From contig NC_088301.1 of the NCBI RefSeq assembly GCF_032854445.1, forward strand, positions 33,648,402-33,712,401: a DNA stretch of 64,000 nt, read 5' to 3'. Source of the DNA: Liolophura sinensis. Its lineage: Eukaryota > Mollusca > Polyplacophora > Chitonida > Chitonidae. The translations under genes were made by a program, and so were the position numbers. The number at the start of each line of letters is the position of its first letter. Position 1 is the first letter of the stretch. Below, one piece after another: positions 29,711 through 52,267 of this stretch. The notes beneath the pieces are model-generated. The model saw nothing but the letters and a program-made list of their open reading frames with translations. It did no database searches and was not told the origin of the DNA.

Positions 29711-29897
29711 CACTTCCATGGCGAGCTTGGTGGGTTTTTTCCACGCCGCGGGGTGTATGTGTGTATACTAGCGTGTAGTAGACTAGAGTACAGTATAACA
29801 GTATAACCGTATAGTATAGGGGTATAGGGGGAAAAAAGAAGCAAAACGTCGGCTTGTAAAGTGGAGTGGGACAGCTCGAAAAGAGCTCAATGGCGCC

Positions 29898-30046: not shown

Positions 30047-30071
30047 CCGGTGAAGACGACTACCGGCAGCC

Positions 30072-32436: not shown

Positions 32437-32918
32437 ATAATAATAATACTGTTACCTTACTATGGAATCAACCCCGGTTTTTGTGTTTTCTTTTTTTATA
32501 TGGACTGGGTCAGTGTGTCAGTGTGTCATGCTAGGGTTGGTATCTATCCCGATAGCTCCTATGTATTATGTATGGACGCACCAGCTGGCTGGCTGGCAAC
32601 AATGTATACAATGTATACAAGGCTCAGCCGATCAAAACAAAAACCACGTGTCAAAACAAAAACCACGTGTAAAAACAAAGCACAGCTGACAACATTGTTG
32701 GCCTGACTGCGGGCCGGCTGGCGGGTAGGATCGCTCAGCGTGTCTTTGCAACACTGTTCGCCCAGGAAGGCTCACTGCTGCAGGCAGAGGGTCGGTGTTA
32801 TGAACCGCAGAGCCTGTCGGCGGGATTTTCCTGTCTGGCTACATGTTGGTTGTGGTAGGGATGGCTGGATCGACACCACACCCAAACATACATGCACACT
32901 GGAGACTCTACTCTACTA

Positions 32919-32989
<71 letters not shown>

Positions 32990-33077
32990 ACTCTACCCTA
33001 TAATATATAGGCCATCTGAGGTAGGTTCACTCATTACACACAACAGACACCAAGCAGCAAGGACGACGTGGTGGACT
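32437..33077. other. spacer with the GTCAGTGTG family and a (TA)n microsatellite
   Basis: Holds the repeated intergenic motif GGGTCAGTGTGTCAGTGTGT at about 32508, a CTCCTATGTATTATGTAT block, an AACAATGTATACAATGTAT block, and an uninterrupted (TA)n run at about 32922-32986. No gene seen. Confidence 0.7.
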
Positions 33078-34237
33078 ATGCCTCGCCTCACTCACGTCAC
33101 TCGCGTCACTCGCATCAACCGACGGCGGAAAAAAAAATCAGTCACGCCGGGGCGTGGTTCAAACCCGATCGATACCACTCTCCATACTTTGTATTATAAC
33201 CCGGACAGTCCAGCGGCTTACAGCGGGGTTCAACCCCTGCTCAAGGCAGCTCGACAACAGGGACTCAAAGTGAGTCGAACCCACGTGTCGACTTGGCTGG
33301 CTCAGCAGGACAAGTACACACTCCACCGGCCTGCACGCCGCCATTACCCACGTAACCGAGTGGTGGTTGGGGGTATTGACAGTCAGTGGCAGGCGGACCT
33401 GGTCGACATGACAGCGTTCGCCAAAGAGAATGACAACAACCGATACCTACTGACCTGCATCGATGTCCTCTCCAAGTATGCCTGGGTGATCCCAATCCGG
33501 GCCAAAACCGGGGCTCGTTTGATCGAGGCGTTTCAACAGATTTTCAAGACGGGTCCCCGACCGTTGTACCTGCAAACGGACGAGGGGAAAGAGTTTCTGA
33601 ACAGATCGTTTCAAGCCTTTTTAAAGGACAAAGAGGTGTTTTTCTTTCACACGTTTAACGAAACCAAAGCCTCCGTGGTAGAACGGTTCAACCGCACTTT
33701 GAAAGGTCGCATGTACAAATATTTCACCGCTCACAACACTCGGCGATACCTGGACGCCTTACTAGCGCTGGTTCGCGGTTACAATCAAGCCTACGACCGA
33801 AGCATACGACGAGCCCCTATCGACGTCACCCCCAGAACCAGAAGGAAGTCCGGCAAATCTTGTACGGTCCACCCACAGCCAAACGCTCGAACCACCGGTA
33901 TCGGCCCGGTGATCTCGTGCGTATCAGTAAAGTGAAAGGGAAATTTGAAAAATCATACCTCTCGAATTGGAGCACGGAAATGTTCCGCATCGTCCGGTCC
34001 CACCCTCGACAACCTGCTGTGTACACACTGGAGGATTTGAACGCGGATCAATTGCTAGGGACGTTTTACGAAACCGAACTCCAACCGGTGACAGCCGCGG
34101 TGGATAAGTTTTATCAGGTGGAGAAGATCTTAAAAAGGGAGCGGCGGCGCGGGAAACTGTACTATTGGGTGAAGTGGGTCGGTTATCCACCCAGCTTTAA
34201 TTCTTGGGTGCCGGCCACGGATGTGAAACGTATTTAA
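33078..34237 (+). pseudogene. retroviral-type integrase with C-terminal chromodomain (Polinton), one frame change
   Basis: Starts at ATG 33078. The rve core shows the catalytic triad: Asp in WQADLVD, Asp in LQTDEGKEF and Glu in VVERFNRT, with 33 residues between the last two. Near 33,828, in a run of C, the frame changes. The homologous reading continues in the frame of 33860-34237, giving an SH3-like RPGDLVRISK segment and then a chromodomain (YQVEKIL...YWVKWVGYP..NSW). Polinton integrases insert the element and make 6-bp target duplications; the chromodomain is thought to bind methylated histone H3. Broken as it stands. Confidence 0.87.
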
Positions 34238-34627
34238 CCCCGAGGATAACAGGGTCGCTACCACTTCCAACTGACCTGCCTCAAGGGATTGATCGGTGTA
34301 TGCCACTAGCGCCATTACCCCGAGCTGGGATCGAACTCCCACGTCATAACCCACCACACCCACCACAACCATACTACACCGACGGCACCCACTCTCCTCA
34401 AACTCCTCAAACTCCTCACCCCCTTCACCCACCCCTACTCACCACACCACACCAATACCTAGCACCGTTTCCACACCTGTCTATCTACCCCCTAACACAA
34501 CACAGGTAACACAGGTAACACAGGCAACGCAGGCGACACAGGTACCATCACCTGCCGTCATTCCCCCCACTATCCACCACCCCCACCCGTACGACGATCC
34601 AAACCGCCGACGGACCTAGTCCTACCC
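34238..34627 (+). other. Pro-rich-coding spacer before the ATPase
   Basis: CCACACC- and ACACAGGTA-type short repeats make a Pro/His/Thr-rich open frame with no recognisable domain. Probably untranslated leader. Confidence 0.5.
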
Positions 34628-35250
34628 ATGGACACGCGATGGGAGCATCCCTTTACCTGTATTGTCAGCGGCCCGACGGGATCTGGGAAGTCTGTGTTTG
34701 TGAAACGGTTAGTGGAACACGCTCCAGCTCTCATTCACCCATCCCCACAACGCATCGTCTGGTGTTACGGGGAGTGGCAGCCATTGTACACCACGTTACC
34801 TCACGTTCAGTTTGAAGAAGGTGTGCCCAGCCCGTCCGCTTTTGACCCGGGGGAGCGGACGTATGTCGTCGTGGATGATTTGATGGCTGAAGCCGACGAT
34901 CGCGTGACAAAACTCTTCACCAAAGGCAGTCACCACCGGAATATCAGCGTGGTGTACAGAATTTGTTTAACAAAACCAAAGACCATCGGACCATCAGTCT
35001 GAACGCACACTACTTGGTGTTGTTCAAAAACCCGCGAGATGTATCTCAAATTACCACGATCGCTAAACAAATGGCTCCAGGGCGGACACAGTACGTGTGC
35101 GAGGCCTTTGAAGATGCCACGGCCGAACCTCACGGGTATTTGCTGGCGGATTTTAAGCAAACCACACCCGATCACCTGCGACTTCGCACCCACATTTTTC
35201 CCGGGGAGATTCAACACGCCTATCTCCCCAAGTCACAATACCAAGTTTGA
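34628..35250 (+). pseudogene. FtsK/HerA-type genome packaging ATPase (Polinton), one frame change
   Basis: ATG at 34628. Walker A GPTGSGKS lies near residue 17, and Walker B is in TYVVVDDLM near residue 80. The first frame (34628-35002) runs to about 34,965, then family sequence continues in the frame of 34963-35250 (NLFNK..., NAHYLVLFKNPRD, IAKQMAPG), so a few bases are missing or added near 34,965. Length, about 205 residues in total, fits Polinton ATPases. In adintovirus-like elements this motor is expected to fill capsids with DNA. It sits between integrase and capsid genes in the usual order. Confidence 0.87.
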
Positions 35251-35454
35251 ACCTACAATCTATCACATCAGTTTGTTTTGGCTGGCTGGCTGGTGGGCTG
35301 GCTGGTGGATGGGCTGGCTGACGTGTCAGCTGACGGACTGGTAAACAGTGTATTATTGTGGCAAGTGGTGACTAGGTCAGTGTGTCAGTGTGTCATCATA
35401 AAACTTTGAACACACAATCTATCGCATCAGTTGATCTCACGACGACTACCCGTG
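35251..35454 (+). other. short spacer with GGCTG tandem repeats
   Basis: Contains GGCTGGCTGGCTGGTGGGCT-type repeats and one copy of the GTCAGTGTGTCAGTGTGTCA intergenic motif near 35378. Confidence 0.6.
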
Positions 35455-35775
35455 ATGAGGTCACGCCGTCTCCAACGTTACGGTCCCTTATTAACCCTGC
35501 TCGCGCGAGCCACCCCCTCTATTCGTCAGGCTGTGCTGCAGGGTAACGATCCAGGATTACTTCGGTGCTTGTGTGAATGTGCTAAGAATGCTCAGAAGGT
35601 GAAGTTACAGCGACACAAGACGGGTCTTCGCACCTTGGTGAAGAAAAGTGTTCCCCTGTATAAGAAAGGACGGATTGTTCAACGTGGTGGATTACTTCCA
35701 CTGCTACTCGCCCCCCTCCTCGCCAAAACCATTGTACCAGCCGTTCTCGGGGGTGTTGTCGGCGGTGTCGTTTAG
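35455..35775 (+). CDS. small basic Polinton protein with hydrophobic C-terminus
   Basis: About 106 residues from ATG 35455. It has an Arg-rich start, then PLLTLLARATPSIRQAVL and CLCECAKN, a Lys/Arg-rich centre, and a hydrophobic Gly/Leu/Val tail (GGLLPLLLAPLLAK...GGVVGGVV). Proteins of this layout occur regularly between the ATPase and capsid genes of Polintons and adintoviruses and have been compared with small adenovirus core or membrane-active proteins; that is family knowledge, and the role is not shown. The frame is intact, one of few in this element. Confidence 0.62.
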   Translation: MRSRRLQRYGPLLTLLARATPSIRQAVLQGNDPGLLRCLCECAKNAQKVKLQRHKTGLRTLVKKSVPLYKKGRIVQRGGLLPLLLAPLLAKTIVPAVLGGVVGGVV

Positions 35776-35810
35776 GGTGTCACTAGTAAGGCTATAGTTG
35801 GTGGCAGGTA

Positions 35811-36529
35811 ATGCAGCACGCCAAGAAAATTGCCTTGGTCGAGCCACGGCTCTTAGAGACGCTTACACGACCTTCACCTCCAGCCCACCCCCCAGCCTAC
35901 CCCAGCTCCCCATACCCCGTGCCCATACGGTGAAAGCCCTCAACACGCTCGATCAAGAGATGGCCTCGATCCTCCACGATAGGACTCTCTCGGACGAGGA
36001 GAAAATACTGCGATATCACCACACCCTTCAACGGTACCGAACGTTTCAAGATCAATACCAAATCGGACAGCGGCCGAGTTCGATCCCACCTCGTGCCAAA
36101 CCCACGAGCAGTCGTTTTTTGAGCGATGTGGATAAGGCGATGCTAGACACCCCAACCCAATCCCTCCAGCCTACCACCCCTACCACCCCTGTCCCCTCAC
36201 ACGAGCGCTCAGCACCCCGGGATCACTACCAGGCTTGGGTGCGGGAAAAAATGAGCACACCCGCCGAGCTGGGGAATCCCGCGATCGCCAGAACCCCAAC
36301 CAGCCAACATAAAAATAAAACCAGGCCCTCCACTACCACCTCTAGTTCCACACACACCACACACCACACCAAAGCGACCCAAGAAGACGCGACGAGGCCA
36401 GCGACCCGAACTCAGGCCCGCTTCATCTATCATACGCCCTCTAAGGTGGAGTCCGTATTAATTAAATACAGGCGCTGGATGACAAAACGATCAGTCCACC
36501 TGAGGGAGATCACACCATGTTTTACGTGA
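35811..36529 (+). pseudogene. Polinton structural-operon protein, frame change near 35,900
   Basis: An ATG at 35811 opens a short frame beginning MQHAKKIALVEPRLLETL, typical of a family common upstream of the Polinton penton gene. That frame closes soon. The main homologous frame (to 36529) takes over with LDQEMASILHDRTLSDEEKI, a helical block, then a Pro/Ser/Thr-rich linker and a C-terminal basic segment. One small frame change therefore separates the start from the body. Its end overlaps the next gene by a few bases, as in compact virus-like operons. Exact function unknown. Confidence 0.55.
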
Positions 36530-37130
36530 CGCTACCCAGTAACAGCTCGCTCGACTACTTCCCCAACAATACCTTGACGCGATTCACCACCCAATTACCC
36601 CGCCTCATCCATTTGACAGGTGACTGGGAATGTGGGCTGGTCGAAATACAGTATTCCCGGACCTGGATTAACGTGCGGGCAGGTGAAGTGTGGTATACCA
36701 TAGACTCCCCCAAAGGACTCGCACCACGGTACGCATAAGCTCATATTACCAGCCGGTTACTACCCAACACCCGAAGACCTGGCCTGGGGGTTGACCAAAT
36801 TGTTAAGCGAGACAGAGATCCGCGATCTCAAGGAGCACGCCGGGGACTTAACGTTTGAGTTCGATGATACGCAGCGGAAATACAGCGTGCGGTTTAAGAA
36901 ACCATTGGGGCTTGGTTTCAGCCCACGGCTAATGCAGCTCATGAATTTACCGTACGGATGGCTCATGGGACCGGCGGACCTCATGTATGTCGGTGCCGAG
37001 GATTTAACGATCAGCACACCCACGCTGTACGTGTACACAGACATTATCAAACCGCGTGTGATGGGGGACACGTTGGCCCCGCTGTTGCGGACGGTTACCA
37101 CGAAAGGGAAGTATGGGGAGCACGTCTCCA
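36517..37130 (+). pseudogene. penton-like minor capsid protein (Polinton), frame change near 36,730
   Basis: Opens at ATG 36517 with MFYVTLPSNSSLDYFPNNTL and DWECGLVEIQY, the recognisable start of Polinton single-jelly-roll minor capsid proteins. The first frame ends at 36738. Homologous sequence (LPAGYYPTPEDLAWGL, FEFDDTQRKYSVRF, YVYTDIIKPRVMGD...PLLR) goes on in the frame of 36791-37528. After about 37,130 the expected C-terminal part is missing and the frame runs straight into the next protein. Role by family: capsid vertices of a virion-like particle. Confidence 0.78.
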
Positions 37131-37528
37131 AGACTTTTCTCCAAGCCGGCGGAGGTGGGTTACCTGTGTTTCGGGGTGTGGCTGTCCAGCGCGGTCACGG
37201 TTTGCTGGGCGGTCTCAGCAAACTGCTACCACAACCCTTGTTAACGTCGCCGGCTGTGAAAGCACTGGGCAAAACGGCGTTACGAACCGGACTGCAAGTC
37301 GTGGGGGACGTGCTGAGTGGGGGCGTGTCACCACAACAGGCTTTGAAACGACGCGGTTTGGCGACTGGAAAACAGCTGCTGGTCAAAGCTAGTCGCTACG
37401 CCCGACAGCGGTTACTGGGTGAGCCTATAAAACGGAAGACACCACGCGTCACGCCCACTCGTCACCGACACGTGGGACTTAAAAGACGTGCCGTCAAGCC
37501 CAGAAGAAGAAGACACATCAAAGATTGA
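37131..37528 (+). CDS. Polinton minor structural protein (GGLPVF-RGHGLGG type), fused to the penton remnant
   Basis: This basic protein segment has an N-terminal GGGGLPVFRGVAVQRGHG motif, a Leu/Gly-rich amphipathic stretch, TALRTGLQVVGDVLSG, and a strongly Arg/Lys-rich tail. Such small proteins usually form their own ORF downstream of the penton gene in Polintons. Here no ATG separates it and the open frame is continuous with the penton piece, so a deletion probably joined the two. The role may be a membrane-active or core protein, by analogy with adenovirus minor proteins only. Confidence 0.5.
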
Positions 37529-38913
37529 ACCGCATCGAATGCCCTGAATCCATCGGATATTTTCAGCTAAACACACACGCACGCACACGCACATACACAA
37601 GCCATGGCTCTTCCCACCCCGAGTGCTGCCCGTCCGTCAGCAGTGAGTTTGATTTGTGGACCTTACCCCCGACCGACACAAGCGTTCGAGAAAGCCGCTG
37701 GGACGCTGACAGCCCCATCGCCAGCCTGAGTGATGTGGGACCTGTGGAATTTGTCATCACGAACGCTGACGCAGACACTTACTTGGACTTGGCCAACACC
37801 ATGCTGTACGTGAAGGCAAAAATCCTCAACGGGGATGGGACGGATGTGGCGGCTGACAAGAAGGTGGCTCCGACTAACCTGTGGATACAATCCATGTGGC
37901 GACAGGTTGACGTCTCCCTTAACGATAAACTCATAACACCGTCCACCAACATGTACCGATACCGGGCTTACTTGGGGACATTGTTGTCTTACGGTAAAGA
38001 GACCAAAAAGAGCCAGCTGTCCGCTGCCTTGTGGTATGTGGACACCCCAGGAAAGTTTGATATGATGGATGACACCAACGCTGGGTTTGACGATCGGAAG
38101 ACCTGCACGGCTGAAAGTCGGTCGGTTGACATGCTGGGTCGCCTGCATTGTGACATGTTCCTGCAACACCGACACCTGCTCAACAACGTCACTGTCCACA
38201 TCCGTCTCACACCGGCTAAGGATTCGTTTGCTTTGATGTCCGGTGAAGCCGCTCCCGGCTACAAGACCCGCTTGGAGGAGGTATTGATCTTTGTGCGCAA
38301 AGTGAAAATCACCAGCGGTGTACAACTGGGGCATTTGAAAGCGTTGGCCAAAGCCCCGGCCAAGTACCCAATCCGCCACGCGCTGACCAAGTATTTCTGT
38401 GTCCCCAGAGGTCACACCCTCATCAATAAACAAAACCTATTTCTGGGCAGCTTACCGACACGTTTAGTGGTGGGGTGTGTGAGCAACAAGGCTTTTGACG
38501 GGGATTACACTAAAAACCCGTTTCGTTTCCGACACTACTACACAAACTTCGTCGCCTTGTACGTCGGCGGTCGTCAGATTCCAACCAAGCCCCTGACACC
38601 CGACTTTGAGAACGAGAATTTCATCCGCACGTACATGAACCTCTTTACCCACACGGGGAAAGCGTTTCACGACGAGGGAAACAATATCAAACGCACCACA
38701 TTCGACGAAGGCCACACGCTGTTTTGTTTCGACTTGACCCCTAGCCTCCACGATGACCACCAACTGAACCTGGTACAAAAAGGGGATTTGCGCCTGGAGA
38801 TGCGGTTTGCCAAACCACTGCCGGAAACCATTAACGTGGTGTGCTACGCTGAATTCAGCAATACCATAGAAATAGACCAGAGCCGAAATGTGCTCTGTGA
38901 CTTCGCCAGTTGA
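37525..38913 (+). CDS. major capsid protein, double jelly-roll (Polinton), start displaced
   Basis: The open frame ends at 38913 and covers nearly the whole hexon-like capsid protein: FDLWTLPPTDTSV near the start, LDLANTMLYVKAKI, the central RLTPAKDSFALM, and the C-terminal NFVALYVGG...RTYMNLFTHTGK...GYNN-type blocks. The natural ATG context (CCATGGC at 37604) lies in a different frame, so a one-base change separates the start from the body. There is no good ATG in the long frame before residue ~90. Role by family: capsid shell trimer. A second copy's 3' third is at 52773-52268. The gene converges on polB. Confidence 0.85.
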   Translation: MNRIECPESIGYFQLNTHARTRTYTSHGSSHPECCPSVSSEFDLWTLPPTDTSVRESRWDADSPIASLSDVGPVEFVITNADADTYLDLANTMLYVKAKILNGDGTDVAADKKVAPTNLWIQSMWRQVDVSLNDKLITPSTNMYRYRAYLGTLLSYGKETKKSQLSAALWYVDTPGKFDMMDDTNAGFDDRKTCTAESRSVDMLGRLHCDMFLQHRHLLNNVTVHIRLTPAKDSFALMSGEAAPGYKTRLEEVLIFVRKVKITSGVQLGHLKALAKAPAKYPIRHALTKYFCVPRGHTLINKQNLFLGSLPTRLVVGCVSNKAFDGDYTKNPFRFRHYYTNFVALYVGGRQIPTKPLTPDFENENFIRTYMNLFTHTGKAFHDEGNNIKRTTFDEGHTLFCFDLTPSLHDDHQLNLVQKGDLRLEMRFAKPLPETINVVCYAEFSNTIEIDQSRNVLCDFAS

Positions 38914-38934
38914 ACAGCCAAAAAGCCAGCTATA

Positions 38935-39090
38935 GCACACTGACACACTGACCCAGTCACCACCTGTTACATCCTCATACATTGTTGCGTCATACATTAT
39001 TACCAGGCCGTCTGCGGTATACCGCCAAGGCGCCGCTCGGCAACAATGTATGACGATGTAGCAGGCACGGCAAGTCGGGTCAGTGTGTCA
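38935..39090. terminator. inverted-repeat spacer between convergent capsid and polB genes
   Basis: CATACATTGTTGCGTCATAC and CGGCAACAATGTATGACGAT face each other around GCGGTATACCGC, and CACTGACACACTGACCCAGT on the left faces GGGTCAGTGTGTCA on the right. The result is a large imperfect hairpin exactly between two gene ends. The equivalent hairpin of element 2 is at 51411-51482. A two-way terminator or insulator role is inference. Confidence 0.55.
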
Positions 39091-39289
39091 GGCTATTACG
39101 GCTGCCGGCCCGCCGCCCCCCCCGCTAGGCGTTTTTAACTTTTTAACGTATGTAGCACTGCGAATGATAAAACACATGAAAAAATTGTACAATTACAAAA
39201 ATGGGAAGACTGTGTCTGGTGTGGGCTTCTTTCTTTCTTTTTTTTTTTAGTGCTTAGATTGAGAAAGTACTCTTTCGGGAAAGTTGGTT

Positions 39290-39305
39290 GGCCCTGAAAA
39301 GGGCC
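39290..39305 (-). terminator. histone-type 3' stem-loop after polB of element 1
   Basis: On the minus strand it reads GGCCCTTTTCAGGGCC: a six-pair stem with a TTTC loop, exactly the replication-dependent histone mRNA stem-loop form. It is followed by AACCAA and, about 10 nt later, the purine run CGAAAGAG, resembling the histone downstream element bound by U7 snRNA. It lies about 65 nt past the position aligned with the polB stop of copy 2. Confidence 0.75.
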
Positions 39306-39309
39306 GTCG

Positions 39310-42300
39310 GAAGTGTCACAAGAGCACAAAAGCACAGGAGCAGGGTGTGTAGAGTATCCATAGCACCGTTCTGTAGATCTAAATAGGTGGTGCTCACCAC
39401 GTCTGGGGAGCACTTTTCGCTTCCCGTAAAAGTATGTGAATGCGTCTTTGTGTTGGGTATACGAGTACATCGTATTGCCCCGCATCCGCATTCCCCGATT
39501 CACACCACTCGCGCTTTGGTGGTCGCGCAACACAGAGAGGTAAACGGCCTTGTCCACATCTCGTGCGCTCACACCTTTGCAGGAGAGTTTGTCTTTGGCG
39601 TTGGATTCCCCGCCGTAACAATAATAAGCCTTGGAACACAAACTGACGATGGCATCACCGATCCACTCGACTTTGAAAAGCCCCGGTGTGCGCTTATCGT
39701 GGTCGTAATGGTCGCGACGGGGTAACCACGCATCCCGCTCGGTCTCGTACACGGCTCGCATTTTGGGTTTGACGAGGGATTCCTAGTCTGGGTCAGACCA
39801 AGCCATGTAAGCAGAGTCTGTGTCCATCTCACAGTACTGCCAATCCGCCTTGTCGAAAAAATGAGCCATGAAATCGTAATAAAATTCCAGCATACGGAGT
39901 TTGGCATACTGGTAGACCATACACCCTATTTGCACGGGGAGATTGTTGTGAATGGTCTTCTTGCTACTCGTCACTTCAAAGGTGGTCTCGTCGATGGGGT
40001 CGACGGTTCGACACCGAACACTCTCCAATAATTTTCGTGTTTTTGTCAGATGGCAGATTTTGACATCCACGTGTCGGTCTTGATTGGTGACGGTTTTTCC
40101 ATAACCTGAATTCCCCAACAGCTTCATCGTCTCCCGATCAGGGCTTTGGTCGGGTCGACATCTCCCTCCCGTCGAGCTTGGGTGACGGCGTCTGCGAAGG
40201 CTTCGAACGCTCGCTGCGGTGTGTATTCCATCGCTTGGTAGACGTGCGAGACGACCAATCCCCGACCGAGATACCACTGGAGCAGAGGTGTGGCTAGCAG
40301 AATTTGCTTACCAAACATGCTCCCGATCAGCATACGCCTGGGTGTGGGCATGATGTCAATCACAGCCGCGAACTCTGCCATGGTGGGGCCTATATCAGCC
40401 CGACTCACCTCGGTGTTTTTAAAGATGGGTGGGCATTCAGCAAAGTCCGCTTTGAGGTGGTCCGGCACGTGAATGTCACATTCCACAACTCCAAACAACT
40501 GGCCTTGAATGACAGCCTCCATAAGCTGAGCTTGTGTCTTGGGCTGTCGCTGTGTCGGGGGTAAACCGTACCGTTGTAGGGAGTCCCGTAAGGCTAGGTT
40601 TGTCGTGCGTTGGCGGTGGAACTCGCACCCCCATATCGTTACCAATGGATAGCCCTGGGAGCGAATGTATGCGTCGTTCGCATCCACCGCCCGCCGTAAG
40701 TCCTGGGGCTTAATCCCCGCCGCTCGTTGTAACACACCTTTCCCGGGCGAGGGTGATTCAGGTGACAGCCGTGATAGTGGAAATAACACCCGTGGAATTG
40801 AAACACAGTAGGCTGTCCGTCGATATAGGCGAACCCGTCTACGGGGAGTTGTCGGTCACCGATCCGCTTCTCGGTGTGATTGAGTCGGTGACGGATCGAT
40901 ACCCCCAGCTGCTGTGACTCCCAGTCCAGCCATTTTTCAGCCAGACGGGTGGCGGTGCCGGAGGGAACGAACTTCTCTCCCCCGTCCCGACGGCGCCAAC
41001 GGACACAGTGAGCTGCCGGCATAGGTGAGGCTAGGCAGTACAGGTATAGCGCGTTGGCATCGAATCCCACGATGCGCTGACAAAGCTTTCCTCCCCGTAT
41101 ACGGGTCACGCCTCGTTCGTGGTAGCGGTGGAAAATGATGCTCGGCCCACCCACGATGTTTTTCTTGAGGCAATCGTGCATGTCTTTGTCTTTTTCACCG
41201 ACGAGGGTGAACACGGATCGTAAATCATGGAATAAGTAGTTGAGGGTAAGCCCTGGTATGCTAATGCAGTCTTTGAAGACATCCACATGCATGGTATGGT
41301 AGAACACCGACATCTTCTCCGCAGCCTCCATGAAGGGAATGACATCTAGGTTATTATACTACCGCAGCAAGTCTTTGACGGTCCGCATGCCGTGCTCTCG
41401 CCACACCGTCTGTAAGGTCTTGTACTCTGCGTCCGTACACGGCTGGTGGGTGAGATCATTGTCGAAAGCATGCTGCGGTGGCAGTGTGGTTTCCTCCAGC
41501 CGGGCCAGGGAGTCTATGTAGCTGTAACAAAATTTCCCTTTGGTCACGCGACAGTCGTAAGCTTTCACCCACTTGTCGTAACTGTAATTCGGGGCCAGGT
41601 AATTCCGAATGTCCAGAAATTTCAGCTGCGGTGTGGTGAGGGCCATGTGATTATTGTTCCGCTTAATCACATACTCCAAATCACCGCTCTGGACCAGGTG
41701 CGGATAAAGCTGTTGTTTGATTAAGTTCAGGTCATAGTTACCCGAGTTAAAGCCGAGGACGGGGAGCTGGTCCATATAGGTCACGAATCTGTCCCGCACT
41801 CGGCGCGTGTAAGACGGTTTCTTCTCGTCGGGATCGATCCGCTCGTCTAATGCGTCCAGGATGTAAGCATAACGCTCGTGGAGATAGGCGCTACTGATCT
41901 CGCTGATGTCGTTGAGGTAAGCCATCATGTCCTCGACGAGTGCCTTGGGATCGCCGGTGGAGATGAAACACACGGGCTGGTCGTAATCTGGTACATTAGA
42001 GTTGACGCTGACACTCATGGGGATGTGTTGAGCCGTCCATTCCGTCGAGCCAGTCGCCGCATCGTCCACCGGGTTCACCGGAGCCAAGTACGCCTCAAAG
42101 TCATAATATGCTCGGTACGGGAAGATGCCGTCGTCACCGTCCTGGAGTTCGATCCCCATGTCCGCCAACGTTTCGAAAATGGTGGGCCGATTGCGGAAGA
42201 CACCCCCCGGGTACTTTCGTCGAATGGCGTCGGTGCACGTTTGACCGTGCCGTCGTAACTCCCACAGTGTCCGAAAACTCTTCTGGCACACCTGGCAGGT

Positions 42301-43153
42301 TAAAGATTGAGCATAACACCCTATGTCTTTGATATAGCTGAAATGCCGCTGGTACAGGTCTAACCGCAGGGTAGGGGGAGAATAGCGCTCGGCACTGCGG
42401 TGAATGAGTTGTGCTGAGTACGACCTGTCCATGGGGATGAGCTGGTAGACTTGAATATTCCCTTGAAACAGGCTTTCCACCGTGTCCAACGCACTGAGGG
42501 GTACCCCGCGGAAATACCTCGGCTCTATCTCCATTTCCTCCAGATACCTGCGGTAATACACCCCAGCCTGGTGTTCGCAGTTTTCGGGGTTGGCCTGGTC
42601 TAGATGGACGGCCAGACACCGAAACAAACACAAATAGTCCCTGTAAGGACCATTATCTCCACCCACCCACCTCTTGGGTGAGGAGATGCTGGGTGTGGAA
42701 TCCTCGCAGGTCAGCCCGACTCGCCACGCGGTACGGTGCGTCGAGTACTCGGGCGTTGTTGGTGCTCGGGTAATAATACCGCACCTGTCCCGTCTCTTTG
42801 TGGCGGAGGATATATCCAAAACTGTAATTGATAGTGAAAGTAGTCGGCTGGTCTTTGTAAACCTCGTCTACATAGGCTGGGATAGCGCCGAGATCACTCA
42901 GTCGGTAATTATAGCAGTCTTGAATTGGCTTGTGGCGATGGAAATGCGTCCTGATCGATTGCCAATGCCGCTGGTACAACTCCCGTACGTCACTGTCACC
43001 GCTCGGCAAGACAGCCTCGTGAGGCTGTACCGGGTGGGGTTCGAACTGACTCGTTGGACTTTGTTTTTTCTTTTCTTCTTCTTTCAGCGAGGCATCCACC
43101 ACTAAACTCACCTTAGCTTTACTCGTTGGGGTGGTGGTAGATGGAACAGGTCT
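39310..43153 (-). pseudogene. protein-primed family B DNA polymerase of element 1, multiply broken
   Basis: The main exon starts after a 3' splice site (TTTGTTACAG) at 43153. It carries an N-terminal region, a zinc-finger-like CQVCQKSFRTLWELRRHGQTC stretch, exonuclease motifs (YDFEAY, GFNSGNYDLN), motif A (GFDANALYLY), motif B (KLLGNSGYGKT) and motif C (EMDTDSAYM). Breaks: a deletion near 42,675 relative to the copy at 63206, TAG at 41359-41361 and 39783-39785 where copy 2 has Trp, and frame changes near 40,725, 40,140 and 39,405. The zinc-finger first exon seen in the other elements is absent upstream. Role by family: replication of the linear element DNA from a protein primer. Confidence 0.88.
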
Positions 43154-44055
43154 CTGTAACAAAGAATGGTGTAGACGTTATAACCTAAGTAAACCCTAGA
43201 CATACCCAATATACATACTATTGTACATATGTGCATGTGTACATATGTTCCGCTAAAAAACATTTATAATACATATAATACATAGGAGCCATTCCGATAG
43301 ATATCAACCCTAGCATGACACACTGACACACTGACCCAGTCCTTTTTTAATACATAAAACATAGGAACCATCCAGATAGGTGTTCCCGTTCACCATTGTT
43401 CAGGAAACATTGTCAGCTGTGTTTTGTTTTGACACGTGGTTTTTGTTGGGTCACGTGGTTTTTTGACCGACTGCGCCTTGTATGTATGCATTGTATACAT
43501 TGTTGCCAGTCAGTCAACACTGCGTCAGCAACTGCGCCAGCAAGCTGGGGCGTACACCCTTATACATGTCACCTACATGGAGTGGAAACCCTATCGACAC
43601 ACCATCTACAGGTGATAGAAAACACATTTGTCACAAGTGCTTGCATAACAGTAAAACAGCTCAGCTGTGAATAGTAATTTTCAGCAATGAAATACAGCTT
43701 GTCTTATTGCATATTATCCAGTAAAGAAGTTTTTTATACTTTTCATATACTGTTACAAACATGTAACATGAGATAGCTCTTACTGTCTTAAATTAACTTT
43801 CAAGAAGCAAAGCGGGTTCAGGGAAGAAGAAGACATCTAAGCCAACAATGACCACGTATTTAATTGACACTTATACACGTAGAAATCACAACCACCAGCC
43901 GATGCGGGTAGGTTGGTCAGTATTAGACATATATATATATATATATAAAAAAAACTTCGGCTGACAACAATGTAGCGTCACGCGCACAGCTCTGGCCAGG
44001 CTGGTGATTCTGTATGAAACGGGCGGGAGAAAACATAAAGCCCGCTCGCACTCAT
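43154..44055. other. polB upstream spacer built from shared repeat blocks
   Basis: Contains, in inverted order, the same blocks as 53040-53520 and 62271-62605: the GTCAGTGTG motif, the CCTATGT..TATGTAT block, a CATGTCACCTACATGGAGTG block, and the AATTTTCAGCAATGAAAT / GTAACATGAGATAGCTC block. It probably corresponds to the intron that separates the zinc-finger exon and polB in the other elements. A (TA)n run lies near 43,930. Confidence 0.65.
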
Positions 44056-44155
44056 CAACCAATCAGTGGGCTGATAATTCCTTTTGTCGTGCTTTTCGCC
44101 CAGGCCAGGGTTGTTAGTATATATAGCATAACCGCGGGTTTGAGTTGGTCAGACT
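44056..44155 (+). promoter_or_regulatory. promoter of the RING-finger gene
   Basis: CCAAT (in AACCAATCAGTGGG, about 44059) is followed by TATATATA at 44118-44125 and an initiator-like TCAGACT at 44149-44155, which puts a start about 33 bp after the TATA box. This is a standard RNA polymerase II layout reading to the right. Confidence 0.55.
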
Positions 44156-44489
44156 GAGTAATCTTCTGCATTGCTATGGATCACCGCTTTCACGATTTTT
44201 TGGGGAGTGCCGGGAGGGGAGATGGGAGGACGTCACTGATAGCGATAGTGATGAAGAAGAACAGTCTTCCGGGGAGAGCTTCTCCCCGGAGGAGCCTTGG
44301 ACCCCATCACCCCCGGCCTCCCCAATCATCATCCCTGACACACCTGAAATCATCCCCGACACACCGGAGGACAGAGTGGAGGCCGCAACCGACCACAGCC
44401 AACTAGATCCCTGCCCCTGCCCACGGTGTACTCCAGTGGAGGAAGAAGCAGTGGGGGAGAATACCACCACCACCGAGGTGAATATATAA
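44145..44489 (+). CDS. acidic 5' ORF of the RING gene region
   Basis: The frame gives an acidic Ser/Glu/Pro-rich product (TDSDSDEEEQSSGES, then IIIPDTPEIIPDTPEDR). Composition is strongly protein-like, although an ATG at 44176 just after the predicted start site opens a different frame. It ends in TTTTEVNI. It may be the N-terminal half of the RING protein separated by a frame change near 44,480, or a separate small protein. Confidence 0.4.
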   Translation: MVRLSNLLHCYGSPLSRFFGECREGRWEDVTDSDSDEEEQSSGESFSPEEPWTPSPPASPIIIPDTPEIIPDTPEDRVEAATDHSQLDPCPCPRCTPVEEEAVGENTTTTEVNI

Positions 44490-45226
44490 ACCGACTAAGA
44501 AGACTCCTCACCAGCCGGGGGATGTCCACCACCACCACCCCGGTGAACAACAACAGCCCAGGATTACCCAGTCCCCTCGGGGCCCGTAGACTCCATCTAA
44601 CCCAAACGGTCTTGGAGCGTTTCATGACCCGCAGGCGTCCCGAGGGGCGGAATATTGGCCGGGGACTCCCCCGGCGACTGGAGATGAACACGGAGGCGGG
44701 TGAAAGTTCGAACCCAGGACGGGGCAGTACAGGCGAACCCATGGAATCAGAGCCACACACACCAGCAGGGAGTTCAAACCCGGGAATAAAACCAGAGCCA
44801 CACACAGGGAGTCCAGCAGGGAGTTCAAACCCGGGAGAGGACTGGACTCCACCACCACCTGGATGGCTAACCACTTGACGGGGTCGACCCCGAGTTCGTG
44901 TCCCACCCCAGCCTCGGGGTGGGACATTTCCTTTAGCAACACCGCCGGGGTCGACCCCACCACCGGCAGCTGCCGCACCACCACCACCACCACCACCTGT
45001 ATCACCTGTGCGAGGCGCAGGTGAGGGGATTGTGGCGTCCCCGCAGGGTGGAGGGGCGCATACCGGCATACGTGAGTGTCGGATTTGCTATGAGAGACCG
45101 TCGGATGCGTGTCTCCTATCCTGCGGGCATGCCGCGATTTGCCTCACCTGTGCCCGCAGACTTACCCCCCAGCGGTGTCCGTTTTGCAACCTGTATATTT
45201 TAGGTATTGTTCGTTTATTTTATTAA
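44426..45226 (+). pseudogene. RING-finger protein (candidate E3 ubiquitin ligase) of element 1, one in-frame stop
   Basis: One frame runs from 44426 to 45226 with a single TGA at 44876-44878. Before the stop: a basic region, then a Pro/Ser/Gly linker with SSNPG repeats. After it: an Ala/Pro-rich stretch and a C-terminal C3HC4 RING with CRIC, CGHAAICLTC and RCPFC, ending in a short hydrophobic tail. The RING most resembles those at the C-terminus of IAP- and MDM2-type ligases; I see no BIR domain. Host-interaction genes are often placed near Polinton ends. The stop or an unseen splice leaves its function uncertain. Confidence 0.62.
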
Positions 45227-45270
45227 TTATATGTCTCGTTTTTAATCGCTTTTTATTCGTATTTGTTTGT

Positions 45271-45350
45271 TTAAAAAAAAAAAAGAAAAAAAAACAAGAA
45301 AAAAAAAAACAGCTGGCTGTTTAAAAAAAAAGAAAAAAAAAGAAAAAACA
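45271..45350. repeat. A-rich low-complexity tract
   Basis: Runs of A interrupted by single G or C, with two copies of a CAGCTGGCTGTTT/AAACAGCAGC-like segment, lie between the RING stop codon and its histone-type stem-loop. Confidence 0.7.
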
Positions 45351-45365
45351 GCAGCACTTTCTTAC

Positions 45366-45381
45366 GGCCCTTTTCAGGGCC
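45366..45381 (+). terminator. histone-type 3' stem-loop after the RING gene
   Basis: GGCCCTTTTCAGGGCC followed directly by ACCCA, the canonical histone mRNA 3' flank, then CCCGAAAAGAGT as a purine-rich downstream element 14 nt later. It is 140 nt past the RING stop. About 110 nt of sequence from here on is homologous to the region after polB (39200-39305) on the other strand. Confidence 0.8.
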
Positions 45382-45550
45382 ACCCAACTCTTCCCGAAAA
45401 GAGTACCTTCTCAATCTAAGCACTGAAAAAAAAAGAAAGAAAGAAGCCCCACACCAGACACAGTCTTCCCATTTTTTTTTCTAATTCATACCCAGCCTAA
45501 AACAAACAAACCATTGTTTTCTCTATTTATCTATCTATATCTATGTCCCA

Positions 45551-45644
45551 TATACTGTTATACTGTACTCTAGTCTACTACACGCTATATCACGCTAGTA
45601 TATACACATACATCCCGCGGTGTGGAAAAAACCCACCAAATTTC
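45551..45644 (-). repeat. right terminal region of element 1 (inverted, truncated)
   Basis: Reverse complement of 29740-29815: TATACTGTTATACTGTACTC, the TAGTCTACTACACGCT block and CCGCGGTGTGGAAAAAACCC. The match stops at about 45644, so the outer part (palindrome and AGTAGTT end) is missing here. Confidence 0.8.
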
Positions 45645-45766
45645 TTGTGTATATGTATAATGTATTGCTGTTACTTATGTATTTCAATGCAGGCTGGTTC
45701 GGAGGTAGGCAGGCAGGTCAGCCGGTGCAGCCGATAGCTGGCGGCGACACCAGCAAACACAGCACC

Positions 45767-46141
45767 ATGGTGCACGTGAGGGGACGATATCCAAGGCTGG
45801 GGAGGGAGATGAGAATGAAGGAAAAAAAGAGGCGGAAGAAGCCGTTCACCTGCCTGCTGTGTGCCAGGGACTTTACCCGGCGGGATAACTGGCTGCGGCA
45901 CCAGCGAACGCGCCCTCAGCCCCACCGTACCCTGAGACCTGACGAACGACAGCCTGGTGAGGGAGAGAGCCGGTTCACCTGCACGACCTGTGGTCGGGTG
46001 TTTTCTCGCCGGAAGCATTTGGTGCGCCACCAACAGTGACATAGCGCAAACAAACAGCGTGTGTGGCATTGTGAAGACTGTCAGAAGTCTTTTTACCGAT
46101 TGTGGGACTGGCGTGTCCATCGACGCGGGGAACACGGCAAG
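45767..46141 (+). pseudogene. C2H2 zinc-finger first exon of polB, element 2
   Basis: ATG 45767 opens a Lys/Arg-rich lead followed by C2H2 fingers (FTCLLCARDFTRRDNWLRH, FTCTTCGRVFSRRKHLVRH, and a last one with WHCEDCQKSFYRLWDWRVH). A TGA at 46037-46039 interrupts the frame between fingers two and three. The exon ends AAG at 46141 with a GTAAGC donor in phase 0. The paralogous exon at 61188-61619 ends the same way. It is separated from polB by an intron of about 2.4 kb. Role inferred: a DNA-binding extension of the polymerase or terminal protein region. Confidence 0.65.
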
Positions 46142-47142
46142 GTAAGCTCACCGTACTCACAGCTGTCGGGTTTTTTTTTTGTTTTGCTAGCCCGGGGGAC
46201 TTTATTTATTTTGGAGAAGAGCCCTACAGCGCCATCAGTGATGTCCAATAATTATTGTTCCATTCAAATTTACATAGAAAAGGCACCAAATCCAGAGAAT
46301 ATGACCACAGAAACGTGTTAGGCAACATATAGGTAAAAAAAGAGCTATCGTCCCTTACCACTGTCAAACTCTAATTTGTTTACTGTTTTTTTTTAAACAT
46401 GATTACCTGTTTTATTGTCCTCAATGGTGATGTCCCCAAGTAAAATGAACAAAACAGACCAAGTTTAACACAGCCTATAAAATGTACAAACCCATTTTTC
46501 ACACTTTCCGACATTGAAAGTGTTGCAACACGCCGTTTACACTTGTGGGCTTAGATTAGCCACACAGCGCCATCTATGATGCCCAATAATTATTATTTTA
46601 TTCCATTCTCCAAAAAAAAATTCCAGAGAATATGGCCATAGAAACGTGTAAGGCAACATATAGGTAAAAAAATAAGCTGATAACTTGAAGGCACACGGTT
46701 ATGTAACACTTGCTGTGCCCCTGCACAAGCAGTTCACCCGTTAATCTCAAGTATCGAAAAATGGACCATTCATAGTACGAAGAAGCGACGAACGGAATTG
46801 CCGAACTGTAGGGCCCGACAAGCATGTCCCAGAGTTCGGCGAAATACCCGAGAGCTATCATCTCTTACTACTGTCAAACTCTAATTTGTTTACATTTTTT
46901 AAACATGATTACCTGTTTCATTGTCCTCAATGGGTTTTGCACATGAAAAATGTTGCAACACGAACCGACCACATTCCGTTTATACTTGTGGGCTTAGATG
47001 AGCCACACAGCGCTATCTATGATGTCCAATAATTATTATTTTATTCCATTCTACACTATATATTACTCCCACTATAAGGAGGTTACAGATCATTTGAAAT
47101 ACGATGCCTACGGGACTAATATTACGGCATGTGAATTTCTTT

Positions 47143-47189
47143 GATTTATTTATTTCATTGATGTTTTACGCCGTACTCAACAATATGTT
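47143..47189 (+). repeat. SINE scrap, copy 4
   Basis: GTTTTACGCCGTACTCAACA matches the core of the SINE family seen at 764, 8484 and 16118; the rest is gone. Confidence 0.55.
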
Positions 47190-47565
47190 GAGATACCACA
47201 GAGCGCGGTGATACGCAGTACTGTATAGTGTGTGATGTTATACAGCACAGTGTCCTATTCATAATGTTTTGTCTGGTATTCATTACACTGCATAGCATAG
47301 TATCGTTTCGTTAATAGTATGGTGTATTACAAAAGGCGCCGTCTATGATGCTACACTCGGCAGGCAGCGCCATCTATGTTGCTGAATACCATGTACGCGA
47401 TAAATATGTACATAACGATAACAGCGCCGTCTATGTGGTTGATCGCTATGTTCGTGCGCTCTGTCGTTAAGTCCGCGCTCTGTCGTTATCTCTCAACCCA
47501 TGCCTTCAAAGTTAACGGCTGTCAATGTCTGGTATTCATCACCTCTGGTCTGTAGCCATCCAGCT

Positions 47566-47745
47566 CGGGGCGGTATGCCCCCCCCCCCAATCAATCAATC
47601 TCGATCTCTGAATCGCTGTCTGAATTAACGATTTCGGTCGCCGCTCGAATTAATCGAGCTCGGGGCGGTATGCCCCCCCCCCATCTCTGAATCGCTGTCT
47701 GAATTAACGATTTTGGTCGTCGCTCGAATTAATCAAGCTCCCTCT
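47566..47745. repeat. ~90-bp tandem duplication with C-runs
   Basis: GCTCGGGGCGGTATGCCCCC followed by CTGAATCGCTGTCTGAATTA occurs twice in direct order with a few substitutions; the C-runs differ in length. Confidence 0.85.
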
Positions 47746-48212
47746 CGACCCGCCATACCGTTCACTTTTTTTTCTCCAACGATAAATAGTCGCTTTTTTT
47801 TTCTTCAACACACCGCTCAACCTTGGATTGACGTGTGTGTGAATATGTCTCAATGTTATAATCACAGCAATCCACAATGCCTGTGTTAGATGTATACACA
47901 CTTTGATTACATTCTCTTCGGGGTCTCCCCACAAGAGAATCCGGCAACAGCGCCGCCTGGCCCGTGACATAGGGCGGACGTCAACGAAATCGGTCTGACA
48001 AAGCCGCACGGCTGTGGAGTGACGACCAGCCTGCCGGCCTGCCTGAACATTGTTTCCAACCTGGCAGGCCTATCAACCAGCCGACCGTGCCGTTCACCGT
48101 AGACTGTCTTTTATACATTGTCACCAGTCAGCCTGGCTGTGGTTAACCACAGCTGACAACAATGTATTATGAACGCTGACTGGGGTCAGTGTGCCATGCT
48201 AGGGCTGACTGC

Positions 48213-48545
48213 CTATCTGGATGGCTCCTATGTATTATGTATAATTTTTTTTTTTTAGGTTATAGACTCCTCATTGAAGTGACATGGTCTACTGCATATA
48301 GGTGACATGTAGATGTGTTTTCTCCTTCATGTAGGTGACGTGTATAGGCTCTACTTAGGCTATAACGTCCGACTGCCTATCTGGATGGTTCCTATGTATT
48401 ATGTATAAAATTTTTTTTTACGTTATAGACTCTTCATTGAAGTGACATGGTCTACTGCATGTATGTGACATGTAGATGTTTTTTCTACTTCATGTAGGTG
48501 ACGTGTATATTATGCATACGGTCTACTTAGGCTATAACGTCTACA
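48213..48545 (+). repeat. ~165-bp tandem duplication upstream of polB, element 2
   Basis: Two direct copies share CCTATCTGGATGG(C/T)TCCTAT, then GAAGTGACATGGTCTACTGC, then CTTCATGTAGGTGACGTGTA, then CTTAGGCTATAACGT. The second copy leads straight into the polB acceptor. Confidence 0.85.
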
Positions 48546-48561
48546 CACTTCTGTGTTACAG

Positions 48562-51247
48562 AGACCCGCCACCACCACCAACAACACCGACAACAACCCA
48601 GCACGAGTAAAGCGGTGAGTCTAGAAGTTGACGAGTCGCTGAAAGAAAAAAAAGTGGAGGTTCCCGGCGAGCCAGTTAGAACCTGACCCGATTCAACCTC
48701 ACGAGGATGTCTTGCCTAGCGGAGAAAGATGTGCGGGAGTTGTGTCAGTGGTATTGGCAATCGATCCGAACCCATTTCCATCGCCACAAGCGAGTGATCT
48801 TGGAGCCATCCCGGTCTGTATAGACGAGGTTTATGAAGACCAGCCGACTGCCTTCACCATAAATTACAGCTTCGGGTATATCCTGCGCCACAAGGAGACG
48901 GGACAGGTGCGGTATTATTACCCGAGCACCAACAACGTCCGGGTATTCAACGCAGCGTACCGCGTGGCGAGTCGGGCTGACCTACGGGAACTTTTCACCC
49001 AGCATCTCCTCAGCCAAGATCCACTCGCTTGGGCGCAAAAAACAGCGACCCAACACGAAATGGACCGTGGGTCTCCTCACCAACGTGATGTTTTTTGTCC
49101 ACAAACTTCCACATCAGCCCATCGGTAAAGGTGGGATAACGTTACCCCCTTACCTGACGGAAACAAGGGGCTACATACGTTGGTGGGTGGGGCTCATGGT
49201 CCTTACAGGGACTATTTGTGTTTATTTCGATGTCTGGCCGTCCATCTAGACCAGGCCGACCCCAAAAACTGCGGCGACAAGGCTCGGGAGTATTACCGCA
49301 GGTATCTGGAGGATGCGGGACTTACGACGGCACGGCCAAACGTGCACCGACGCCAATCGCCGAAAGTACCCGGGGGCGGTGAATTCCACAATGGGGATTG
49401 ACCTCCAGGACGGTGACGACGGCATCTTTCCGTACCGAGCGTGTTACGACTTCGAGGCGTACTTGGCCCCGGTGAACTTGGTGGACGAAGCGGTGACTGG
49501 GTCGACAGAATGGACGGCCCAACATGTACCGGACTACGACCATCCCGTGTATTTCATCTCTACTGGCGACACCCAGGCACTCGTCGAGCGGATGATGGCT
49601 TACTTCAACGACATCAGCGAGATCAGAAGCGCCTATCTCCACGAGCGTTATGCTTACATCCTGGACGCATTAGACGAGCGGATCGATCCCAACGAGACTA
49701 AACCGTCTTACACTCGGCGGGTTCGGCACAGATTCGTCAAATATATGAACCAACTCACCGCACTCGGCTTTAACTCGGGCAACTACGACCAGAACGTGAT
49801 CAAACAACAGCTTTATCCGCACCTGGTCCAGAGCGGTGATTTGGAGTATGCAATTAAGCGGAACAATAACCACATGGCCCTCACCACACCACAGCTAAAA
49901 TTTCTGGACATTCGGAATTACCTGGCCCCGAATTACAGTTACGACAAGTGGGTGAAAGCTTACGACTGCCGCGTGACCAAAGCGAAATTTTGTTACTCCC
50001 TGGCCCGGCTGGAGGAAACCACACTGCCACCTCAACATGCTTTCGATAGCGATCTCACCCACCAGCCGTGCACGGACGCGGAGTACAAGACCCTGCAGGA
50101 GGTGTGGTCGGAGCACGACATGCGGACCGTCAAAGACTTGCTGCGGTGGTATAATAACCTAGACGTCATCCCCTCCATGGAGGCTGCGGAGAAGATGTCG
50201 GTGTTCTACCATACCATGCATGTGGATGTCTTCAAAGACTGTATTAGCATACCAGGGCTTACCCTCCGCTACTTGTTTCACGATTTACGATCCGTGTTCA
50301 CCCTCGTCCGTGAGAAAGACATAGACATGCACGACTGCCTCAAGAAAAACATCGTGGGTGGGCCAAGCATCATTTTTCACCGCTACCACGAACGGGGAGG
50401 AAAGCTCTGTCAGCGGATGGTGGGATTCGATGCCAACGCGTTGTACCTGTACTGCCTTGCCTCACCTATGCCGGTGGGTCACTGCATCCGTTGGCAGCGA
50501 CAGGACGGGGAGAAGTTCATCCCCTCCGGCACCCCCACCCGTCTGGCTGAAAAATGGCTGGACTGTCAGTCACACCAGCTTGGGGTATCGATCCGTCACC
50601 GACTGAACCGGTGACCGACAACTCCCCGTAGACGGGTTCGTCTATGTCGATGGACAGCCTACTGTTTTCCAATTCCACGGGTGTTATTTCCACTACCACG
50701 GCTATCACCTGAATCACCCCACCCGGGAGAGGTGCGTTACAATGATTTCATGGCTCGTTTTTTTTTGACATGGCGGATTGGCAGTACTGTGAGATTGACA
50801 CAGACTCCGCGTACATGGCCTGGCCTGACCCGGACTGGGAATCCCTCGTCAAACCCGAGCTGCGAGCCGTGTACAAGGCCGAGCGGGATACGTGGTTACC
50901 CCGTCGCGACCATTACGACCACGATAAGCGTACACTGGGGCTCTTTAAAGTCGAGTGGACCGGTGACGCGATCGTGAGTTTATGCTCAAAGACCTATTAC
51001 TGTTACGGCGGGGAAACCAACACGAGAGAAACTCTCCTGCAAAGGTGTGAGTGCTCGGGGTGTGGACAAGGCCGTGTACCTCTCTGTGCTGCGCGATCAC
51101 CAAAGCGCGAGTGGGGTGAATCGCGGGATGCGGATGCGGGGAAATACGATGTACTCGTATACCCAACATAAAGATGCCTTCACGTACTTTTACGGGAAGC
51201 GGAAAGTTCCCCCAGACGTGGTGAGCACCACCTACCTGGATGTGTAG
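48562..51247 (+). pseudogene. family B DNA polymerase of element 2, large internal deletion
   Basis: Starts after CTGTGTTACAG. Early frame change near 48,605. N-terminal block to about 49,128 (YILRHKETGQVRYYYPS). Further frame changes and a deletion around 49,130-49,390. A long open piece 49313-50614 has the exonuclease motifs (YDFEAY, GFNSGNYDQN) and motif A (GFDANALYLY). About 50,735-50,770 jumps directly to motif C (EIDTDSAYM), so the segment with motif B (KLLGNSGYGKT in copy 1) is absent. The C-terminal GLFKVEWTGDAIVSL continues, and the tail ends at TAG 51245-51247. It cannot encode an active polymerase. It retains Trp codons where copy 1 has TAG. Confidence 0.87.
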
Positions 51248-52267
51248 AACCATGCTATGTGTACCGTACAAACCCCGCTCCTATTTTTTCATGTGTTTGT
51301 TGTTAACAGTGATTCAAAAGTTAAAAAGTTAAAACCACCTAGCAGGGGGAGGGAGGGAGGCAGGCCGCCGTAATAGCCCGACACACTAACCCAGTCGCCG
51401 TGCCTACTACATCATAATACATTGTTGCCAGTCCGCGCCTTGCGGTTTACCGCAGATGGACTGGCAACAATGTATTACGATGTATACAAGGCGACTGGGT
51501 CAGTGTGCCAGTGTGCTATAACCGATCTGGCTGGCCTTGCTGGCTGGGTGATTTTGTTCATTCTTCTTATGTTATCATGTTGTGTTAGCGTTAAAAAAGT
51601 TCATACTCATAATAAAAATAAAGTCAAACGGTATGTGAGTCTATTGGTCTCTTTTTTTATTTCATAATGTATGTCATAACAGGTCGAACAGGGAAACAAG
51701 AACGTTGAATACATAACAGATCGAACTGGGGGAAAAAAAGAACCCAAACCGGCGATCCAACCAATCGAACACCCGTAAGTCGTTATCGTAGGTCGTACAC
51801 GATGTGTCCAACGTATGTACAAGAGCATCCATGGGACGACCTCGAGCTCGCTGGGTTAAGTAACACACACAATATTGACCGCACACGGCCGTGTCCAGAC
51901 TCTGCAGCCACCGATCGTTCCACATCCAGTGGTGTGTTCCCCGGTTAAGCCAAGCGGTGATATCGGGGTAGAGGGGTGGGAGTCCGTAGGAATCAAAGTA
52001 TTCACCCCGGAGATGGGGCGGGTTGGACCACTGGTCTATGAAGACGGCGACCCAATGTTGTCCCGGGCGAAGGCACGTGTCTGTGTTAATGACGCAGGCC
52101 CAGGGTGTGTAGGGTGTGTCGGTGACTGGGTGACGGGGGATACGGGGGATAGGGGGGGAGGTGGTCTCGAGGGTAGACAGCCCCCTCCCCTACCACACCA
52201 CGGGTAAACACGTCTGTCTGTAGCACATGTCGCAATTGTACCGTGTCCATGTTGTTGTTTTGGCTGT
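51248..52267. other. spacer between convergent polB and capsid remnant, element 2
   Basis: Contains a strong hairpin (51411-51482) and GTCAGTGTG motifs at about 51,380 and 51,498. Past 51,560 it is a stretch without family homology that I can see, with a few short frames on both strands. The histone-type stem-loop region found after polB in element 1 is missing here. Confidence 0.55.
51411..51482. terminator. long hairpin between convergent genes, element 2
   Basis: CATAATACATTGTTGCCAGTC on the left pairs with GACTGGCAACAATGTATTAC on the right around TGCGGTTTACCGCA, itself a small palindrome. Position and sequence correspond to the hairpin at 38935-39090 in element 1. Confidence 0.7.

Follow-up and report, generated by a model that had tools for sequence, protein, structure and literature searches.

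The stretch of DNA considered here, referred to below as the window, comprises 64,000 nt of the 609-Mb assembly of the chiton Liolophura sinensis (C7:33648402-33712401), and contains a Polinton of ~16 kb in which two genes, those for the family B DNA polymerase (polB) and for a RING protein, are each followed by a stem-loop of the type found at the 3' end of replication-dependent histone mRNAs (Rfam family RF00032). Like other Polintons or Mavericks (adintovirus-like), the element combines an integrase (rve, 2.6e-11), a packaging ATPase (IVa2-like, 3.6e-4, its 19.9 bits being below the Pfam cut-off of 21), capsid proteins, polB and terminal inverted repeats (TIRs). The integrase, packaging ATPase and capsid genes are on the plus strand, polB is on the minus strand and the RING gene on the plus strand, with polB and RING being divergent. 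The polB assignment rests on homologues of the polB piece of a second, partial Polinton in the window, which carry PF03175. The capsid genes, including the one that we take to encode the major capsid protein (MCP), have matching counterparts in five other Polinton contigs, and a Liolophura sinensis protein aligns with 84% of the MCP length at 95% identity.

The twin stem-loops reported in the initial annotation are confirmed, as the 16-mer GGCCCTTTTCAGGGCC occurs exactly twice in the window, once after polB and once after the RING gene (Table 1), with no third match at up to three mismatches; at the same tolerance, shuffled sequences averaged 0.32 matches, with at least two in 5 of 100 shuffles. 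Both sites fold as expected into a six-pair stem (GGCCCT/AGGGCC) with a TTTC loop. The RING copy has the canonical ACCCA flank that had been claimed for it, the polB copy has AACCA, and the purine-rich element described downstream of both stems is found as GAAAGAG at 14 nt (polB) and as GAAAAGAG at 15 nt (RING). The spacing from the stop codons holds for the RING gene, whose open reading frame (ORF) ends 139 nt before the stem-loop; the polB stop claimed at 65 nt is missing from this copy, which has CAG at the position of the TAG found in the second element and in another copy (L142). The covariance-model check suggested in the initial annotation was likewise divided, with the RING copy above the curated RF00032 cut-off of 34 bits (E 3.3e-6 against all 4227 Rfam families) and the polB copy below it (E 7.3e-5). 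Nothing beyond the two stem-loops matched RF00032 at E <=1 over positions 30000-50000, and therefore the other genes of the window element are without the signal. Fold z-scores against shuffles, calculated on stretches of 50-51 nt, were -4.2 for the RING copy and -2.8 for the polB copy.

Table 1. Features of the Polinton and adjacent sequence, in positions of the window
Feature	Positions	Strand	Remarks
Stem-loop after polB	39290..39305	-	six pairs, TTTC loop; RF00032 29.5 bits (below cut-off); letters identical to host H3
GAAAGAG, candidate downstream element (U7 target)	39270..39276	-	motif also 13-14 nt past host H3 and H1 stem-loops
Shared 3' module, polB side	39197..39312	-	inverted copy of RING-side module
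Stem-loop after RING gene	45366..45381	+	RF00032 34.4 bits, above cut-off
ACCCA flank, predicted cleavage at its end	45382..45386	+	as in host H1; cleavage site assigned by analogy with histone pre-mRNAs
GAAAAGAG, candidate histone downstream element	45396..45403	+	
Shared 3' module, RING side	45359..45476	+	
Polinton family B DNA polymerase gene	39388..43177	-	split into several frames; stop lost
RING gene	44127..45226	+	C3HC4 RING in 44879-45226, PF13920 4.4e-12; upstream parts in other frames
MCP gene, without histone-type stem-loop	37525..38913	+	convergent with polB
Left TIR (visible part)	29727..29795	+	83% complementary to right TIR
Right TIR (visible part)	45571..45639	-	RING stem-loop thus within element
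polB of second, partial, oppositely oriented Polinton	48728..51247	+	3' untranslated region (UTR) without module, ~150 nt absent relative to first element

Within the window, the two stem-loops do not provide independent evidence, because both are located inside one shared module of ~110 nt. On the sense strand, the hexamers AATAAA and ATTAAA occur neither from the RING stop to the right TIR nor over the 5 kb beyond the polB stem-loop; the MCP gene is also followed by neither hexamer for ~960 nt, and their absence in the window is weak evidence by itself. In viral contigs, 101 stretches contain the bare 16-mer GGCYCTTTTCAGRGCC; ACC follows in none of them, and no match was left when an ACC[AC] flank was required. 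The 16-mer alone therefore proves little, and it is the flank and the genome-wide context that carry the proof. These viral-contig sites were dropped as chance or unrelated hairpins, lacking both ACC and any tblastn match to pieces of the window Polinton.

Exact matches to GGCCCTTTTCAGGGCCAMCCAACT, a pattern that comprises the stem-loop plus its flank, were identified at 50 sites in the genome, and the reversed control gave none. All 50 sites were inspected and assigned to genes by tblastn of the window pieces, with homology required in sense orientation at most 1.5 kb upstream of the site. The stem-loop is thereby present in related, less decayed elements, on 23 polB and 24 RING gene ends of the same genome and additionally in a diverged Polinton described below; the three remaining sites follow neither gene. 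The flank separates the two genes, being AACCA in 22/23 polB sites and ACCCA in 20/24 RING sites. At every polB site, the stem follows the end of the polB homology by 84-106 nt; for RING, whose matches are often incomplete, this distance ranges from 19 to 1259 nt. MCP homology is located within ~1.5 kb downstream at 19 of the 23 polB sites and at none of the 24 RING sites. No AATAAA or ATTAAA was found from -120 to +160 at 48 of the 50 sites, and the RING copy at C8:12916341 reaches 39.9 bits with RF00032. In three loci (L143, L155 and L175), a polB-type 3' UTR with the stem-loop is found with no polB nearby and is followed by a common, different downstream sequence (AGTGGAT...GTTTTTT...); perhaps a Polinton 3' end was dispersed here as part of a derived repeat.

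Sequence identity around the stem-loop was compared for 49 of the 50 sites (L108 was left out), namely 23 RING sites and a polB group of 26 that includes the three unassigned ones. In the zone of the downstream element (+24..+62), which is outside the search pattern, mean pairwise identity was 97.6% among RING sites, 96.8% in the polB group and 97.2% for RING sites against polB sites. The corresponding values, in the same order, were 56.6%, 82.9% and 45.1% for -400..-100, 80.6%, 73.9% and 75.2% for +62..+125, and 58.7%, 76.7% and 44.0% for +160..+400, and identity in the -12..0 zone was 78-91%. This pattern favours selection on the signal without proving it, since site selection required an adjoining 24-mer to match exactly and the copies may have undergone gene conversion. 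Alternatively, a histone 3' flank may have been captured once and copied within the element as a passenger without function, the identity of the copies being due to recent spread and gene conversion. This appears unlikely: it would fit a shared module that goes beyond the signal, with RING and polB sites still sharing 75% identity over +62..+125, but it does not readily explain why RING copies that are down to 57% identity upstream remain at 97.6% in the downstream-element zone, with lower values on the two sides of the signal (74-81% for +62..+125 and 78-91% for -12..0), nor why 47 of the 50 sites are downstream of and in sense to polB or RING homology, at such a constant distance in the case of polB.

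The diverged Polinton (C10:17040111; L110, L186) has amino acid identities of 47-63% to the window polB pieces and 37-45% to the MCP, and a stem-loop follows its polB gene. It retains the exact stem-loop, AACCA and AAAAGAG, plus TCTAGGCA in place of the TCTAAGCA of the others, and scores 39.8 bits with RF00032, above the cut-off. The remainder of its polB 3' UTR is unlike that of the other copies, and no RING gene and no second stem-loop were found within the 10.4 kb read. The retention of little except the signal in this element argues further against a functionless passenger.

The same signal was found at histone genes of the host. A gene for the linker histone H1 on C1 (L184 901-1476; Pfam E 8.8e-30) was located via an RF00032 match of 32.7 bits, below the cut-off, and a gene for histone H3 lies ~2 kb from it (L202 618-1025; Pfam E 4.5e-48), in 10.45 kb of flanks that were taken irrespective of stem-loops. 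At 32 nt past its stop, H1 has CCAAC, the stem-loop with one G-U pair in its stem, ACCCAA, GAAAGAG at 14 nt and then TCTAAGCAC. At ~31 nt past its stop, H3 has CCAAC, the same 16-mer as the Polintons, letter for letter, followed by AACCAA, GAAAGAG at 13 nt and then ATCTAAGCAC. The TCTAAGCAC motif after the downstream element is common to the Polinton signal and to both host genes. A 57-nt stretch of H1 gave a fold z-score of -0.6, its best fold still containing the stem-loop. Alignment scores were obtained for 46 nt past the stem, with 5000 shuffles per pair. No shuffle reached the scores of H1 against H3 (19), H3 against the window polB (17), window RING (15.5) and diverged polB copies (15.5), or H1 against the window RING copy (16), and 2 of 5000 reached that of H1 against the window polB copy (13.5). 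The module was probably captured as DNA from a host histone gene rather than from a mature mRNA, because the likeness extends beyond the expected cleavage site. The host also encodes SLBP, with two PF15247 matches above the cut-off (61.1 and 37.4 bits) that are 2.2 kb apart on C6 and read as two exons.

The Polinton signal thus resembles the 3' end of replication-dependent histone mRNAs in its six-pair stem, its TTTC loop, its ACCCA or AACCA flank, its purine-rich element 13-15 nt after the stem, its identity to the host H3 stem-loop and the lack of a nearby poly(A) hexamer in 48/50 sites; it differs in being located on viral-type DNA polymerase and RING genes of a mobile element rather than on histone genes. 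Hairpins at gene 3' ends also occur in a related virus group, the giant viruses and virophages, in which they are generic palindromes linked to polyadenylation, whereas the motif of the chiton Polintons is the specific histone one.

A long hairpin of another kind, CATACATTGTTGC...GCAACAATGTATG, accompanied by ACACTGACCC repeats, is located between the convergent 3' ends of polB and MCP (38960-39070 and 51400-51510), recurs at most of the 23 polB sites, ~250-340 nt beyond the first base of the stem-loop, and is a possible two-way terminator. Judging by this hairpin, the element may rely on such structures where its genes end, and the histone-type stem-loops could by analogy be transcription terminators, or other RNA or DNA structures unrelated to SLBP. 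We regard this as highly improbable, as a generic hairpin needs no exact TTTC loop, AMCCA flank, GAAAGAG at 13-15 nt or TCTAAGCAC, all of which are common to the host H1 and H3 genes. Less probable still is a role of the modules as inverted repeats for recombination, for example in flipping or moving a polB-RING cassette; they are indeed inverted ~6 kb apart around the polB-RING pair, but no flipped copy was seen, downstream MCP homology being confined to polB sites, and the histone-specific motifs would be left unexplained.

The preferred reading, to which a probability of about 0.78 is given, is that this chiton Polinton family carries a host-derived replication-dependent histone 3'-end signal after its divergent polB and RING genes, and that the signal is used via SLBP and U7. 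The sequence of the signal supports it directly, as do its placement at particular genes, its conservation, the resemblance to host histone genes and the presence of a host SLBP; the processing itself, the use of SLBP and U7 and the limitation to a part of the cell cycle are what we infer from the known pathway. Several observations weigh against this reading. Gene conversion may have homogenised the copies and thereby mimic selection, and the 50 sites were picked by an exact pattern, so that their count says nothing on the share of signal-bearing copies among all polB and RING copies. Two polB copies, those of the second element in the window and of C4:17802 (L195/L198), have lost the signal by deletion; both read as deletion derivatives of the layout in the stem-loop copy L142, and the C4:17802 copy now carries AATAAAG shortly after the polB stop. 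Six partner windows, located at the expected distance from unpaired sites and chosen without the stem-loop pattern, yielded the stem-loop in none and polB in two: four had neither polB nor RING, one had a polB broken off by unrelated sequence, and one had a polB without the stem-loop. These deletion copies and partner windows also speak for the functionless passenger considered above. The Polinton 5' flank is without the AAA of the Rfam consensus, as are those of host H1 and H3 (CCAAC). The host likeness is based on two histone genes, and that of H1 to the diverged polB copy is weaker (score 9, reached by 56 of 5000 shuffles). A host U7 was not identified with RF00066, the best matches having 26.6 and 25.9 bits at a cut-off of 34. 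Finally, the histone-type 3' ends distinguish the chiton family from other Polintons, as no RF00032 match at E <=1 was found in five distant Polintons from metagenome-assembled genomes, in which MCP identity was 33-48% and polB matches were present in two of the five, the polB 3' ends of these two not having been checked for completeness.

Under the preferred reading, the histone 3'-end signal would most likely have been acquired at the DNA level from a histone gene of the host, and then either put at both gene ends or copied from one to the other. The RNA steps that involve SLBP and U7 are those of the known histone pathway. Host SLBP would bind the stem-loop and the U7 small nuclear ribonucleoprotein would pair with the GAAAGAG element, upon which the pre-mRNA would be cut 4-5 nt after the stem, past ACCCA or AACCA. 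The mRNAs would exit without poly(A), be translated through SLBP and be removed once DNA synthesis ends, and the replicase and the RING protein would thus be produced while the cell replicates its DNA. A broader proposal, held with less confidence and favoured only on balance, is that this Polinton lineage took over the host histone mRNA pathway, and that its polB-RING pair mimics two histone genes in divergent arrangement; the replicase and the RING protein would then be synthesised, from SLBP-bound mRNAs without poly(A), only during host DNA replication, with the other genes outside this control.

The five distant Polintons (L102-L106) are of animal type; the contigs that contain them are deposited as parts of bacterial metagenome-assembled genomes, including those of tubeworm and mussel symbionts, and the elements are probably contamination from the host animals. 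Relatives of the MCP were found neither in the viral contigs nor in the phage records. In one of the five Polinton contigs, from a mussel-symbiont metagenome-assembled genome (L103 11728-11792, plus strand), a weak match to the twister-P1 ribozyme (28.9 bits versus a cut-off of 67.2) is located ~480 nt past the Polinton MCP match. In the chiton genome, 71 of the 75 scored RF00032 matches of the assembly belong to a tandem array with a unit of ~1.41 kb (C10:21126691-21289604; L107, L111-L136), which was considered as a host histone cluster and rejected, its ORF not being a histone. As in the Polintons, a non-histone coding sequence (for a 103-aa protein, read in L111) is followed by a histone-type stem-loop and a GAAAAG element; unlike the Polinton signal, the array is a host one, with a GGCTC/GAGCC stem, an ACACA flank and AATAAA further on. 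The protein has no Pfam match above the cut-off, and none of its 16 homologues is named. Another site (L109, C7:54549129, minus strand) has 39.8 bits with RF00032, ACCCA, GAAAGAT and a preceding TATA-like box, with no clear histone or Polinton ORF, and may give a transcript, non-coding or from a pseudogene, whose 3' end is of the histone type. The window further contains a retrotransposon of the LINE type (55650-58694, plus strand), a 1014-aa ORF with matches to endonuclease, reverse transcriptase and RNase H, the last being just under the Pfam cut-off.

Among animal genes, a 3' end of the stem-loop type is taken as characteristic of replication-dependent histone genes. In agreement with the initial annotation, none of the papers listed in the open-access searches made here describes, as far as its listing tells, histone-type 3' ends on Polintons. 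Within the reach of these searches, no other mobile DNA element or DNA virus is known to time its own replication gene to S phase via a histone 3' end, and the chiton family would be the first example. If true, a mobile element would connect its replication to the S phase of its host at the level of mRNA 3'-end formation. RNA sequencing with poly(A) selection would miss such transcripts, and therefore Polintons that have been called silent may in fact be expressed.

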